Assembly (NCBI RefSeq): GCF_900109145.1
Contig: NZ_FNYY01000014.1
Location: 1-64,000, forward strand
Origin: Marinovum algicola
Lineage (GTDB): Bacteria > Pseudomonadota > Alphaproteobacteria > Rhodobacterales > Rhodobacteraceae
Direction of reading: 5' to 3'
Length of the DNA: 64,000 bases
Below the pieces are notes generated by a model, which was not told the origin of the DNA, did not search any database, and saw only the letters and a list, made by a program, of their open reading frames with translations. The position numbers and the translations under genes were made by a program. Of the stretch, positions 50,487-59,517 are shown piece by piece; within the stretch, counting starts at the first letter, position 1, and each line of letters opens with the position of its first letter.

Positions 50487-51472
50487 TCACCCGTCGGGGT
50501 GATGGCAGGCCACGTCACGCCCGTCCGGCCGCCGCCGGAGCGGCGGCACGTCGCGGCTGCAAAGCGCGGTGGCGATCGGGCACCTGGGATGGAACGGACA
50601 GCCTGCGGGTGGCGTGATCGGGTTGGGCATCTCCACCGAGGTCTTGCCGGTGCGGCTGCGGCTGCGGCGCGACAGCAGCCGCGGGGCGGCGCCCAGGAGC
50701 ATCCGTGTATACGGATGCGCCGGCCGGTCATACAGCTGCTCGGTCGGGGCAAGCTCGACGATGCGTCCGAGATACATCACCGCGACGCGATCCGAGATAT
50801 AGCGCACCACCTGAAGGTCATGGGCCACGAACAGCGTTGTGAGGCCCAGCTCTTTCTGCAAGTCGCGCAGCAGGTTCACGATCTGCGCCTGGATCGAGAG
50901 GTCGAGGGCGGATACCGCCTCGTCGCAGACCAGGAACCGCGGCGTCAGCGCCAGCGCCCGCGCGATCCCGATGCGCTGCCGCTGCCCCCCGAGAACTGAT
51001 GCGGATAGCGGTCGGCCATCGACCGGGGCAGGCCGACCCGGTCGAGCAATTCGTCAACCCGCGCATGGCGGGCGGCACGGTCCATGGTGCCGGCGATGAC
51101 CATCGGTTCGGAAATGATCCGCCGGGCGGTCATGCGCGGGTTGAGCGAACCGAATGGATCCTGAAACACGATCTGCATCTGGCTGCGCAGCGCCTTCAGG
51201 TCGCGCCCCCGGAGCGCCGTCACGTCATGGCCGTCAAAGCGGATCTGCCCGGCGCTGGTGTCGAGCAACCGCAGCAGCATGCGGCTGACCGTGGTCTTGC
51301 CCGATCCGCTTTCGCCAACCAGCCCGAGGGTCTCGCCCGAGCGGATGTCAAAGCTGATGCCGTCCACCGCCCTGACATGGCCCGCGGCCCGGCCGAGCAG
51401 GCCGGACCTGATCGGGAAAAGCTTCTGAAGATCGCGGACCTCGATCAGCGGCGCATCCAGGGTGTCGCTCAT
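50487..51472 (-). pseudogene. Peptide-type ABC transporter ATPase (DppF/OppF type), frameshifted
   Basis: The full-length family product would be about 327 residues, but the frame is broken. The first part (from ATG 51472) has Walker [15 protein letters not shown] and the Q-loop [13 protein letters not shown], then runs out of frame just after PHQFSGG. The continuation, with signature [13 protein letters not shown], Walker [15 protein letters not shown]-loop [14 protein letters not shown] and the C-terminal Cys-rich oligopeptide motif [10 protein letters not shown], lies in another frame. A run of six C (50984-50989; six G on the coding strand) needs one more base to restore the frame. Either a real one-base deletion or a homopolymer sequencing error. 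The start overlaps the preceding ATPase stop (ATGA). Confidence 0.85.
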
Positions 51473-55411: not shown

Positions 55412-56866
55412 ATGAAATTCAGAGCAATGGCGGCCGCCGCGCTGGCCGCGACGCTTGGCCTGACGGCCCCCGCCTCGGCCCAGGATCCGGCCAAGGGCGG
55501 CGACCTTGTCGTCGCGATGGCCGTGACGCTTCCAAGTGTCGATCCGCATGCCTCGACCGGTGTGGCGACGCGGTATGTGTCGGCCCATATGTTCGAAGGC
55601 GTGGTCACGCGCGGCGAGACCGGCGACATCATTCCGCAACTGGCCGCCAGCTACGAGATGAGCGACGACGCCCGGACCTATACCTTCACCCTGCGCGACG
55701 GCGTGCGCTTTCACGACGGCAGCACGCTGGACGCCGGCGACGTTGTGGCCTCGTTGCAGCGCATGAAGGACGCCGGCGTCGACCAGGGTGTCATGGCGCT
55801 TGTCGAGAACCTGGAGGCGGTCGACGATCTGACCGTACGGGTCACCATGAGCGAGCCGCATCCGACCTTTCTCGACAGCCTGTCTTCGCCGCGGGTGATC
55901 GTCGGGATCATGCCCGAAGAGATCGCGGCGCTGCCCAAGGAAGAGTTCAAGCCGGTCGGCACCGGGCCGTTCGAATTCGTCGAATGGGTGCCCGACAGCC
56001 ACATCAGGCTGGCCCGTTTCGAGGCGTACAGCCAGCAGGCCGAAGCCACGCCGCGCGACGGATTCGGCGGCAAACGCACGGTGTATGTGGATACCGTGAC
56101 CTTCCGCACCGTGCCGGAAGCGGGGGCGCAGATCGCCGGGTTGCTGACCGGCGACTACCATATCGCCGACCAGGTTTCGCCGCAGGATGTGCCACGGCTC
56201 GAGGCCTCGGACGAGGTCAGCGCCGTCAAGGTGCTGCCGTGGTACATGGTTCACCAGACCTTCAACCTGACCAAGCCTCTGGGCGCGGACGAGTATTTCC
56301 GCAAGGCGGTGCAGGTCGGGCTCGACCTCGAGGTGCTGCTCGATTTCGCCACCGGCGGCAATTACGTGCTTGGCCACGGCTGGCAGTATGACGGTTTCCC
56401 CTATTACTCCGATGCCGGGATCGAGACCTACAACCTCGGCGATGTCGACAAGGCGAAAGAGCTGCTGGCGCAGAGCGCCTATGATGGTGAAGAGATCGAG
56501 ATCCTGACGATCTCGGACGAGGCGGCGCTGCGGGATTATGCCATCGCGCTGGCCGATCAGCTCGGCAAGCTGGGCATCAAGACCCGCATCAACGCGCAGA
56601 ACGCCGCCACCTGGTCGGCGCTGCGGGTCGAGCGCGAGAGCTGGACGATCATCATTGGCGGTTTCGGCATGGCTCCGTCGATCGGGCCGTTCGGCATGCT
56701 GCGCCACTTTTCCGGAGACGGGTCGCTTCAGGGCGTGACCTTTCCCGAAATCGAGGACGCCGCCCATCGCGTCAGAACCGGCCTGACCTTCGAGGAGCGC
56801 AAAAAGGCCTTCGAAGACTATCAGGCCGGGGTGTTGGGCAAGGCGATCTCGATCCGCGCCGGGTGA
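55412..56866 (+). CDS. Peptide-type ABC transporter substrate-binding protein (SBP family 5)
   Basis: 484 residues with a Sec signal (MKFRAMAAAALAATLGLTAP, cleavage near ASA-QD). The mature part begins DPAKGGDLVVAMAVTLPSVDPH and contains FEGVVTRGETGDIIPQLAASY and YTFTLRDGVRFHDGSTLDAGD, diagnostic of the DppA/OppA family. GGGAGGA precedes the start. It supplies the receptor for the permeases and ATPases encoded divergently at 50.5-54.3 kb. A strong hairpin follows, then two sulfatase genes on the same strand, suggesting the imported ligand is a sulfate ester or its breakdown product. Confidence 0.9.
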   Translation: MKFRAMAAAALAATLGLTAPASAQDPAKGGDLVVAMAVTLPSVDPHASTGVATRYVSAHMFEGVVTRGETGDIIPQLAASYEMSDDARTYTFTLRDGVRFHDGSTLDAGDVVASLQRMKDAGVDQGVMALVENLEAVDDLTVRVTMSEPHPTFLDSLSSPRVIVGIMPEEIAALPKEEFKPVGTGPFEFVEWVPDSHIRLARFEAYSQQAEATPRDGFGGKRTVYVDTVTFRTVPEAGAQIAGLLTGDYHIADQVSPQDVPRLEASDEVSAVKVLPWYMVHQTFNLTKPLGADEYFRKAVQVGLDLEVLLDFATGGNYVLGHGWQYDGFPYYSDAGIETYNLGDVDKAKELLAQSAYDGEEIEILTISDEAALRDYAIALADQLGKLGIKTRINAQNAATWSALRVERESWTIIIGGFGMAPSIGPFGMLRHFSGDGSLQGVTFPEIEDAAHRVRTGLTFEERKKAFEDYQAGVLGKAISIRAG

Positions 56867-56908
56867 TCCGCGCCTGGGACATCTGGCTCGCTCCCTGAGC
56901 CGGACCTT

Positions 56909-56940
56909 CGCCCCGCATCCGCCTCCTCGGATGCGGGGCG
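56909..56940 (+). terminator. Strong hairpin after the binding-protein gene
   Basis: CGCCCCGCATCCG (56909-56921) pairs perfectly over 13 bp with CGGATGCGGGGCG (56928-56940), 6-nt loop, 43 bp beyond the stop. Without a U run it may cause partial termination or stabilise the upstream message, keeping receptor expression above that of the sulfatases. Confidence 0.55.
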
Positions 56941-57039
56941 TGGGCCCCCAAGTCGTAAGGAAATTCCCCCAGGGTGCCGGCGGGCACCGGCACGGCGAAG
57001 GCCGACGCCGCAGCTGCGTCCGGCAGACGGAGACAGGAC

Positions 57040-58257
57040 ATGCACAAGCACCCCGACATACTTCTCATCCTCGCCAACAGGCACAGGCGCGACTACACCG
57101 GCGCCGGCGGGGGGCAGCTTGTCCATACGCCCCACATCGACCGGCTGGCGGCCGAGGGGGTCTGGTTCGACAAGGCCGCCACGATCTTTCCCGCCCCCGG
57201 TCCGTCGCGGATGTCGATCCTCAGCGGTCGCTATCCGGCCGCGGATGCCGCGCCGGTGACGCTGGCCGAAAGCCCGCTGGGCCGCTGTCTGGCCGCGGCC
57301 GGATACGCGCTGACCGAGATCACGCCCGCGCCGGGCCCCGAGGGGCTGCGCCGCACTGCGGAACGGGCCCGCGATGCGTTGGCCGGCGGCACCGGGCCGC
57401 GCTTTACCCTGGTCACCCTTCCGGAACTGGACGGGGAAACCGACGATCTGCCGGCGGAGGTTCTGGATCTCTATCGCGGCAAGGGCATTCCGCTGGCCAT
57501 GCACCACGCGGCGGTGACCGCCTGCGACCGCGCGGTCGGGCAGATCCTCGACGCGCTTGCGGCCACGGGCAGGGCCGGGACCACGGCGGTGATCTACAGT
57601 TCGGTGGTCGGCGATCAGTTCAAGTTTCGCGATGCCGTCAACCGGGGCGGCCACACCTGTTACGACGATTGCATCCGGGTGCCGCTGGTGATCCGGGGGC
57701 CCGGCGGGCCGGCGGGGGTGCGGCTGGCGCAGATTGTCGGATTGCACGATCTGGCCCCCACCATCGCGGCGATGGCCGGGGCCGATCTGGCGGATGCCGA
57801 TGGTGAGAGCCTTCTGCCGCTGATGGCCGGCCGGCCGACGGCCTGGCGCCGGGCGCTCTATATCCACAACCGCCACCTGCGCCATATCGCGGTGACCTTT
57901 GAGGCCGAGAAGGGCCGGGCCTATTACGGCACCTTTCCGTCCTGGGATCAGCGCGCCATCTGGACCGGGCGCCACAAGCTGATCCTGAGCTTCGACAAGG
58001 GCCGGCACAGCCTGTTCGACACCTGCATCGACCCGGAAGAGGAATTCGATCTGTTCGGCGCGCCGCACCGGCGCACGCCGATGGACGAGCTCACCAGGTT
58101 CAAGGACACCATGCCGCTGGTTCGGGAACTGGCGCAGGAGATGGCCGCGCTTGCCGAGCGGGTTGGCGACCGGGCGGGCGCGGATCTGGCGCGCGAGATC
58201 GCCCGCTCGGCCGATCCGCTGCACCGGCCGGCCGGCACACCGTTTCATCATCTTTGA
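57040..58257 (+). CDS. Sulfatase-fold protein lacking catalytic residues (pseudo-sulfatase)
   Basis: 405 residues, clearly of the sulfatase fold (HTPHIDRLAAEGVWFDKA, PSRMSILSGRYP, VGLHDLAPTIAAMAGADL, WTGRHKLILSF). The catalytic sites are all altered: the N-terminal metal Asp-Gln is Asn13-Arg14 (LANRHRRD); the formylglycine Cys position is Pro53 (PGPSR); and the Asp-His of the second metal motif is Val-Val (SSVVGDQF). The gene is intact, has GACAGGA upstream of its ATG and normal codon use, so it looks retained rather than decayed. It lies 12 bp before an active-looking sulfatase of nearly equal length. A binding or regulatory partner role is possible; enzymatic sulfatase activity is not expected. 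Confidence 0.85.
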   Translation: MHKHPDILLILANRHRRDYTGAGGGQLVHTPHIDRLAAEGVWFDKAATIFPAPGPSRMSILSGRYPAADAAPVTLAESPLGRCLAAAGYALTEITPAPGPEGLRRTAERARDALAGGTGPRFTLVTLPELDGETDDLPAEVLDLYRGKGIPLAMHHAAVTACDRAVGQILDALAATGRAGTTAVIYSSVVGDQFKFRDAVNRGGHTCYDDCIRVPLVIRGPGGPAGVRLAQIVGLHDLAPTIAAMAGADLADADGESLLPLMAGRPTAWRRALYIHNRHLRHIAVTFEAEKGRAYYGTFPSWDQRAIWTGRHKLILSFDKGRHSLFDTCIDPEEEFDLFGAPHRRTPMDELTRFKDTMPLVRELAQEMAALAERVGDRAGADLAREIARSADPLHRPAGTPFHHL

Positions 58258-58269
58258 CAGGAGAGCCCC

Positions 58270-59517
58270 ATGACAGACCAACCGAATATCCTCGTCCTGT
58301 TCAGCGATCAGCAGCGCGCCGACAGCCTGCCCAGCTATGGCAACAGCTTCGTCTCGGCGCCCTACCTTGACCGGATGGCGCGCGATGGCGCGCGGTTCAG
58401 CCAGTGCCGGACGGTGTTTCCGGTCTGCACCCCGGCGCGGGCCTCGATGTGGACCGGCAAGTTCCCCCACAGCCACGGCATCGAGAAAAACGTCTATGGC
58501 GTGCCCGATCTGCTGGCCGACCGCGGGCTGACCGATCGGACCGTCTTTGCCCTGCTGCGCGGCGCCGGCTATCAATGCGGCTATTGGGGAAAATGGCATC
58601 TGGGCGAGGCCAACCCGGGGCCGTTCGACGAATGGCATGCGTTCAATTCCTGGGGCGGGCACTGGCAGGATCACCGCCAGCATTTTCAGGGCGGCACCTA
58701 TATTCCCGACCGCGACACCGACGCGATGATCACCTGGCTGCGCGAACGCGAGACGACGCGCCCGTTCTGTTCGGTGATCTCCTGGTATCCGCCGCATGAT
58801 CCGTTCTCCTGCCCGCTGGACACGATGGACCATTACCGGCGCATGGGCGTGCCGTGCCCGGGCTACTACGGTTCGGTCACCGCGCTCGACCGCTGTGTCG
58901 GCCGGATCATGGCGGCGCTGGAAGAGACCGGGCAGGCCGGGAATACCATCGTGTTCTACTACTCCGATCACGGCGAGACCTTTCGCGCCCGCGACGGGGT
59001 GACATCGAAATTCGTCTGCACCGAGGATTCCGTGCATGTGCCGTTTCTGATGCGGGGGCCGGGCATTGCCGACAATCTGGTCATCGACGAATTGATCGGC
59101 CTGCAAGACCTGATGCCGACGATGCTGGATATCGCCGGGGTGGCGGCGCCGGCGGACCTGCAAGGCCGCAGCCTGATGCCTCTGATCCGCGGCGAGGCGC
59201 CGGACTGGCGCGACATCGCCTATATCGAGAACGAGACCCACAACATCATGCGCGACAGCGATGCCGACCCGAGGGCGCGGCGGCGCCAGCGGGCGGTGTT
59301 CGACGGACGCCACAAGCTCATCCTCGAGGATGGGCAGGCCATCCTGTTCGATCTCGCCGCGGACCCCGAAGAGCGCATTGACGTCTCGGCCGCGAACCCC
59401 GCCGAGGTCGCGCGTCTGGCGGGCCGTCTCGGGGCCGAGGCGGCGCGGCTTGACGATCCGCTGGGATGCAAGCTGGCCGAAGCGGCGCTTGGCGGGCGGG
59501 CGGCGCTGGCGTCATGA
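58270..59517 (+). CDS. Sulfatase-family hydrolase 2
   Basis: 415 residues with an intact active site: Asp13-Gln14 in LFSDQQRADS, formylglycine motif C53-T-P-A-R in FPVCTPARASMWTGKFPHSHG, KWHLGEANPG, and YYSDHGETFRARDG for the second metal site. No signal peptide, so cytoplasmic. CAGGAGAG precedes the ATG. Residue numbering of the active Cys equals that of the Pro in the preceding pseudo-sulfatase, supporting origin by duplication. Family members hydrolyse sulfated sugars, choline sulfate or heparan-type units; the substrate here is unknown. Confidence 0.9.
   Translation: MTDQPNILVLFSDQQRADSLPSYGNSFVSAPYLDRMARDGARFSQCRTVFPVCTPARASMWTGKFPHSHGIEKNVYGVPDLLADRGLTDRTVFALLRGAGYQCGYWGKWHLGEANPGPFDEWHAFNSWGGHWQDHRQHFQGGTYIPDRDTDAMITWLRERETTRPFCSVISWYPPHDPFSCPLDTMDHYRRMGVPCPGYYGSVTALDRCVGRIMAALEETGQAGNTIVFYYSDHGETFRARDGVTSKFVCTEDSVHVPFLMRGPGIADNLVIDELIGLQDLMPTMLDIAGVAAPADLQGRSLMPLIRGEAPDWRDIAYIENETHNIMRDSDADPRARRRQRAVFDGRHKLILEDGQAILFDLAADPEERIDVSAANPAEVARLAGRLGAEAARLDDPLGCKLAEAALGGRAALAS

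Follow-up and report, generated by a model that had tools for sequence, protein, structure and literature searches.

A sulfatase paralogue that has lost its active site is retained in Marinovum, possibly as a partner of the adjacent active sulfatase

The catalytic set of the Enterococcus faecium arylsulfatase comprises D20, Q21, C61, R65, K110, H112, H220, D311, H312 and K324 (PMC12421950, excerpt). SulfAtlas notes as putatively inactive nine sequences from Lentisphaerae and Planctomycetes without Arg55 (PMC5066984, excerpt), and the periplasmic domain of YejM/LapC/PbgA, which is related to arylsulfatases and to LtaS, has a sulfatase-like fold, no catalytic residues and a regulatory role (PMC13125744, excerpt). 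Oligomers in the sulfatase superfamily typically make their larger contacts through a C-terminal helix, although PAS is monomeric and both EfAS and PsFucS1 oligomerise without such a helix (PMC12421950, excerpt). Dead paralogues that activate a partner are established in other systems (PMC10211241, excerpt), and AdoMetDC with its prozyme is a known case (PMC5201418, excerpt).

Here we set beside these systems a pair of adjacent sulfatase genes from Marinovum algicola, located in a 64,000-nucleotide stretch of DNA that was analysed as a whole and that we call the window (Table 1). An earlier note on this DNA had placed the two ORFs 12 bases apart, exactly where we find them, and had read the first as a dead copy maintained by selection for a non-catalytic role. 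The alignments confirm the first product, P0001, as an S1 sulfatase scaffold without an active site, and the presence of an orthologue in a second species, together with dN/dS, supports its maintenance. We propose that this pseudosulfatase, kept by selection in Marinovum, is most likely a non-catalytic partner of the adjacent active sulfatase, a reading to which we assign a probability of roughly one half.

Table 1. Positions in the window of the two sulfatase genes, of the altered sites in the dead copy and of neighbouring features
Feature	Coordinates	Strand	Remarks and basis
Dead sulfatase paralogue (pseudosulfatase), P0001	57040..58257	+	405 aa; ORF, homology, alignment, model
Asn13-Arg14 codons, where metal Asp and Gln are expected	57076..57081	+	Asp-His in G676 orthologue; alignments
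Pro53-Gly-Pro-Ser-Arg57, where Cys-x-Pro-x-Arg is expected	57196..57210	+	Ala-x-Pro-x-Met in G676; alignment, motif search
Residues 67-151, shortened middle	57238..57492	+	GKWH and PPH catalytic segments missing in both dead orthologues; alignment
Val189-Val190 codons, where metal Asp-His is expected	57604..57609	+	Leu-Ser in G676; alignments
Residues 266-345, C-terminal subdomain	57835..58074	+	Best-conserved part in dead pair (45/78 identical); alignment
Spacer of 12 bases ahead of active gene	58258..58269	+	AGGAG at 58259-58263; sequence
Active-type sulfatase paralogue, P0002	58270..59517	+	415 aa; 10/10 catalytic positions, CTPAR at 53-57
Oligopeptide-type ABC substrate-binding protein gene, upstream neighbour	55412..56866	+	Start as annotated in DG 898
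G+C-rich hairpin of 13 pairs between binding-protein gene and dead gene	56909..56940	+	Sequence
Third, active-type sulfatase of the cluster, P0003	61722..63179	-	Pfam match; neighbourhood comparison

Fold and active site of the dead copy

P0001 and its neighbour P0002 are homologous (BLASTP 30% identity, E 6e-49), and both score well above the 25-bit cut-off of the Pfam Sulfatase family (PF00884), P0001 with 63.5 bits and P0002 with 159.5; the C-terminal part of P0001 also has an SGSH_C match. An AlphaFold2 model of P0001 based on 29 homologues reached a mean pLDDT of 86.5 and a pTM of 0.90, with low confidence at residues 196-202, at 342-344 and in parts of the loop around 281-300. A Foldseek comparison of the model with the PDB ranks S1 sulfatases first, among them 7oz8 (E 3.1e-23, TM-score 0.74 by query length). 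Taken together, the Pfam homology and the model place P0001 in the sulfatase superfamily fold as predicted, and the matches of both sequence and model to S1 sulfatases indicate a sulfatase fold without its active site. The earlier statement that P0001 retains fold and length holds for the predicted fold and only roughly for the length: internal catalytic segments have been lost, and C-terminal segments are longer.

Ten catalytic positions, taken from the E. faecium arylsulfatase and placed on P0002 by motifs rather than by direct alignment, are all present in P0002, with its Cys at residue 53 as previously noted, and in the alignment with P0002 a single one of them, Arg57, is identical in P0001. 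The substitutions first read from the sequence, Asn13-Arg14 for Asp13-Gln14, Pro53 for Cys53 and Val-Val for Asp233-His234, prove correct by alignment. That every visible motif had been replaced is true of these sites and needs amending elsewhere, since Arg57 is retained and the losses extend to GKWH, PPH and the second lysine, the counterparts of P0002 Lys108, His110, His176 and Lys247 having gone through the shortened middle and through substitutions. The orthologue from the second species, P0006, is dead by way of different substitutions: its first metal site reads Asp-His, Cys is replaced by Ala, Arg by Met, and the Asp-His of the second site by Leu-Ser. Neither protein has the metal-site pairs sought, Asp with Asp/Gln and Asp with His/Asn, and GK..H, PPH and the second pocket Lys are absent from their places in both.

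We also scored a survey alignment of 194 rows, made up of 19 named sequences and of 175 sulfatase ORFs, from the loci gathered, that reach 400 aa and exceed 60 bits, shorter or weaker ORFs and duplicates being left out. Under loose criteria the three dead rows match two of the ten positions, a score that counts one lysine-to-arginine change as that alignment placed it. The other 191 rows match at least six (ten positions in 167 rows, nine in 13, eight in 5, seven in 3 and six in 3), and some of the lowest-scoring are truncated sequences.

Occurrence, origin and selection

Twelve genes of the window, the last compared only in part at the window end, have a DNA identity of 98.4-99.3% to their counterparts on plasmid pMaD5 of M. 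algicola DG 898 and stand in the same order; the dead protein of that plasmid (AKO99615.1) is 99.0% identical to P0001. Among four genomes of the genus, the dead gene is found in the window's own and in G676. The G676 orthologue is 45% identical to P0001, has the same segments missing, is also dead and adjoins an active paralogue, which is the arrangement in a second species that the earlier note's reading called for. In all three sequences, from two species, the dead gene directly precedes the active one. The remaining two genomes (G099 and G675) contain weak sulfatase matches only (best E 1.6e-10 and 9.9e-13), which would not fit the active gene either. With P0001 as query at E 1e-5, sulfatase matches occupy 40 places in the window's own genome (G000) and 35 in G676, compared with 2 and 7 in the remaining two genus members.

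Gene order in the window, DG 898 and G676 runs from ABC transporter genes through LysR and the binding protein to the dead and then the active gene; in G676 a likely orthologue of P0003 follows directly after the active gene. A binding-protein gene is also upstream of the sulfatase gene(s) in G676, in L027 (an alphaproteobacterial MAG labelled Baikal), in G470 and in G565, and in the last three it is followed directly by one active sulfatase. In G133, G040, G706 and G727, one active subfamily gene comes after ABC ATPase genes, with more distant sulfatases nearby. Each of these seven related loci thus has one active gene of the subfamily and no dead copy, and the full CTPAR-type active site is present in the matches from G133, G040, G706, G727, G470 and G565 (G884, found later, was left out). 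The single-gene order of the relatives marks the dead gene as an addition between binding protein and active sulfatase, most likely made by duplication.

The interval ahead of the dead gene holds a hairpin in the window (Table 1) and a different one, of 12 pairs, at the same place in G676; hairpins are common after binding-protein genes. Neither a T-tailed terminator nor a sigma-70 promoter was found in 56700-58400. Nearby enolase-type, dihydrodipicolinate-synthase-like and aldolase genes suggest a sugar-acid pathway. Compared with DG 898, an ABC transporter ATPase gene of the window (50487-51472, minus strand) has a one-base gap that splits its frame, either a real lesion or an assembly error, and the binding-protein gene is 58 bases shorter near its 3' end (56859-56860, plus strand), which curtails the C-terminus; unless these are assembly errors, the importer of this strain may be impaired.

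No further dead copy rose above threshold in 295 genomes of the family (E 1e-40) or 394 (E 1e-35), in 196 genomes of the order (E 1e-35) or in 385 of the class (E 1e-30), in overlapping samples that hold about one genome per genus for the family, leave out G676 and had 4 to 9 candidates scored per genome, which leaves room for dead copies in unsampled species. Collections of genome contigs and viral contigs yielded no close relative of P0001, and a profile of the two dead proteins had no match among the viral contigs; these contig scans are seeded with short exact peptide patterns and may omit the window's own and near genomes. When genome contigs were searched with an active-type alignment, L027 (43% identity) was the only close relative among the best 80 of 575, the next standing at 35%. 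A plasmid search with the G676 dead protein returned 304 records, and in one of them, that of DG 898, the match extends over 80% or more of the query.

Irregular sulfatase ORFs of other kinds were seen along the way. One in the window's own genome (L014 265-2103, C43) is broken by one in-frame stop into pieces of 328 and 284 aa and is a candidate for a true pseudogene, in contrast to the dead copy. Another, in G676 (L119 9885-11257), is apparently split over two frames. A Dehalococcoidia MAG (L032 4254-5762) carries, upstream of an active-type sulfatase, a sulfatase-family ORF whose nucleophile position is occupied by Thr and whose GK..H is replaced, possibly a further atypical member of the family.

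In a subfamily tree of 13 rows, the dead and the active Marinovum proteins each form a clade (100/100). A tree of a smaller set joins the two as sisters with a support of 65/79, which is not significant, the alternative that keeps all actives together having a p-AU of 0.063. The C-terminal E/HN..QR loop is 10 aa long in every one of the seven relatives outside the genus, whereas in Marinovum the two active proteins have 20 aa and the dead proteins 26-28; lengthening in both favours a local duplication, and it is this shared feature that suggests that the dead and active genes are sisters. Branch lengths of 0.82+0.72 in the dead lineage, against 0.28+0.40 in the active, indicate that the dead copies have evolved more than twice as fast.

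Conservation is also differently placed in the two lineages. The dead pair is 44% identical at residues 1-66 (29/66) and 58% at 266-345 (45/78), and in the same columns the active pair shows the opposite, with 73% in the N part (48/66) and 44% in the C part (28/63); the interaction of pair and region has a z of 3.48, and because the limits 66, 266 and 345 were chosen after seeing the alignment, the p-values by region are exploratory. The tail at 346-405 is poorly conserved in both pairs (dead 11/56, active 11/43). Of columns conserved in at least five of the seven relatives from other genera and kept by only one Marinovum partner, 13 are dead-only and 65 active-only in the N part, whereas the C part has 8 dead-only and 3 active-only (Fisher 3e-4, with 1e-3 and 2e-3 when the cut-off is tightened). 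In the C part the majority of the conserved columns are either kept by both partners (17) or lost by both (22). There is a tendency for each copy to retain ancestral residues that have been lost from the other. The stretch after DPEE measures 47-50 residues in the active Marinovum proteins, 67-71 in the dead and 54-70 in the relatives. A lengthened loop (277-304) inside the C-terminal subdomain of P0001 has residues common to both dead proteins, and of the 103 columns that do not vary among nine actives, both dead proteins retain 51.

Between the window and DG 898, the 405 codons of the dead gene differ by 16 synonymous and 4 nonsynonymous changes (dN/dS 0.087) and the active gene by 13 and 3 (dN/dS 0.072), small counts from one strain pair. 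The 16/4 split excludes neutrality (binomial p 8e-7) and is no different from that of the active gene (Fisher p 1.0). For the dead gene, the comparison with G676 rejects omega=1 (LRT 156), and dN to G676 amounts to 0.50 in the dead gene and 0.49 in the third sulfatase, as against 0.28 in the active gene and 0.29 in the binding-protein gene; because pairwise dS to G676 is saturated, we use dN and the rejection of omega=1 and set the omega values aside. The dN/dS comparison that the earlier note had proposed thus gives a value of about 0.09 between strains and no sign of neutral decay. That note had further pointed to the freedom from stops. The ORF is indeed intact, and at random composition 7.7 stops would be expected in the window's dead gene and 12.1 in that of G676, but their absence is weaker evidence when taken alone because an 830-aa ORF on the opposite strand shows how open this G+C-rich DNA is; the orthologue and dN/dS carry the case. 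Loss of motifs, purifying selection and an orthologue in another species characterise P0001, on the evidence of sequence, as a pseudoenzyme under selection.

Possible roles of the dead copy

The partner reading draws on the lost active site, purifying selection, linkage in two species and the C-terminal shift of conservation. Divided constraint, the C-terminal oligomer contacts of the superfamily and the known activating dead paralogues make a hetero-oligomer our leading hypothesis: the products of the two adjacent cistrons would assemble, the dead subunit would contribute a C-terminal surface for oligomerisation, stability or allosteric control, and the active subunit would desulfate an imported substrate. 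The physical association of the two proteins, its effect on activity and the substrate are what we infer; a cytoplasmic location is probable, as no signal peptide is apparent by eye. Because the seven related active genes do without a dead copy, the partnership would be an invention of Marinovum only, and the dead copy, as such a lineage-specific partner, is probably no broken gene but one whose product assists or regulates its neighbour. Among the three roles envisaged in the earlier note, that of partner subunit or regulator fits best, with a ligand sensor as a possibility. More tentatively, the pair may have degenerated reciprocally, the active copy keeping the catalytic lobe with a trimmed C-terminus and the dead copy keeping and elaborating the C-terminal subdomain, such that only the hetero-oligomer is fully functional; by analogy, the dead copy of such a pair would be a prozyme-like subunit for a formylglycine (FGly) sulfatase.

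The alternative that survives best, though we consider it unlikely, is that the dead copy has a function independent of its neighbour, either binding or sensing a ligand or carrying out new chemistry at a site rebuilt from residues peculiar to the dead pair. There are 49 residues present in both dead proteins and in none of nine active relatives, several of them C-terminal His, Trp, Arg and Lys, and His236, His276, Arg281, His282 and Trp302 belong to this set; moreover, in YejM a sulfatase-like fold without catalytic residues became a ligand sensor (PMC13125744, excerpt). However, the active Marinovum pair has 48 residues of its own, about equal, so the count of 49 by itself means little. Both dead proteins have lost the Lys and His of the old pocket, and the G676 protein has not retained Arg57, which makes binding of a sulfate group at the old site unlikely, and a protein acting alone sits poorly with a gene that adjoins the active one in every sequence that has it.

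It is improbable that P0001 is still an enzyme whose catalytic residues have moved to other positions. Such migration is known among pseudoenzymes (PMC10211241, excerpt), but the nucleophile motif C/S-x-P/A-x-R, found at 53-57 in P0002 and P0007, occurs nowhere in P0001, P0008 or P0006, and the dead proteins have no D-H/N/Q-G motif either. A loose GK..H match in G676 lies elsewhere in the protein, and Cys207, the sole Cys common to the dead pair, is conserved in active relatives too. The absence of the motif from the whole of P0001 argues that the nucleophile has not simply relocated; the earlier note had allowed for catalytic residues at other positions, and no relocated nucleophile motif came to light.

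Slightly less probable again is that the dead copy acts as a chaperone or decoy in the formylglycine maturation of the active sulfatase, a role listed in the earlier note. It adjoins a Cys-type sulfatase, and both genomes (the window's own and G676) have FGE-family matches (PF03781), but these are on other contigs, the dead protein offers FGE no Cys-x-Pro-x-Arg to bind, none of the seven related active genes is accompanied by a dead copy, and one can argue that a helper of this kind would be needed equally by the numerous other sulfatases of these genomes; we find no support for this role.

A leftover of tandem duplication decaying without function is very unlikely and is rejected on dN/dS and the G676 orthologue: the catalytic residues are lost, evolution is faster than in the active copy and two of the four genus genomes have no dead gene (though no match fitting the active gene either), but dN/dS between strains is near that of the active gene, the ORF is intact in three sequences of which one has diverged to 45% identity, codon-position G+C follows the pattern of a coding gene, about half of the invariant columns are kept and the fold model is confident.

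If the non-catalytic partner reading is right and the dead copy serves as a subunit, certain sulfatases may seem inactive, or of the wrong specificity, when they are expressed without their partner. Sulfatases are numerous in such marine bacteria and are named by homology, and the dead gene itself was deposited as 'Arylsulfatase A'. The pair, its counterpart in a diverged second species and the single-gene relatives as controls make the origin of a pseudoenzyme partner directly testable.

Comparison with described systems

The S1 (FGly) sulfatases near P0001, namely 7oz8 (BT1918), 5g2v (BT4656) and 9koq (EfAS), share with it the predicted fold and sequence homology; by contrast, P0001 is without nine of the ten catalytic positions and has no residue for FGE to mature. 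The putatively inactive sequences of SulfAtlas, in the excerpt of PMC5066984, have lost one residue, whereas the Marinovum dead copy has lost nearly the whole active site and selection on its gene has been tested. YejM is a membrane protein that senses lipid A, and the dead protein differs in having arisen inside a sulfatase subfamily, in a catabolic-looking cluster. The NCBIfam YejM model is not listed for P0001 at E 0.001 and gives P0002 19.1 of 825 bits, far under the cut-off; P0001 starts directly with the first core strand and is not of the YejM type with its membrane domain. Our searches of open-licence papers turned up no soluble bacterial pseudosulfatase retained next to an active paralogue. 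The AdoMetDC prozyme (PMC5201418, excerpt) offers a dead paralogue kept with an active partner, as we propose here, in an unrelated fold and organism, and activation in the Marinovum pair would be by analogy. A retained dead paralogue is thus already known in general; for the sulfatase family the papers searched gave no worked example, and the Marinovum case is limited so far to two species of one genus.
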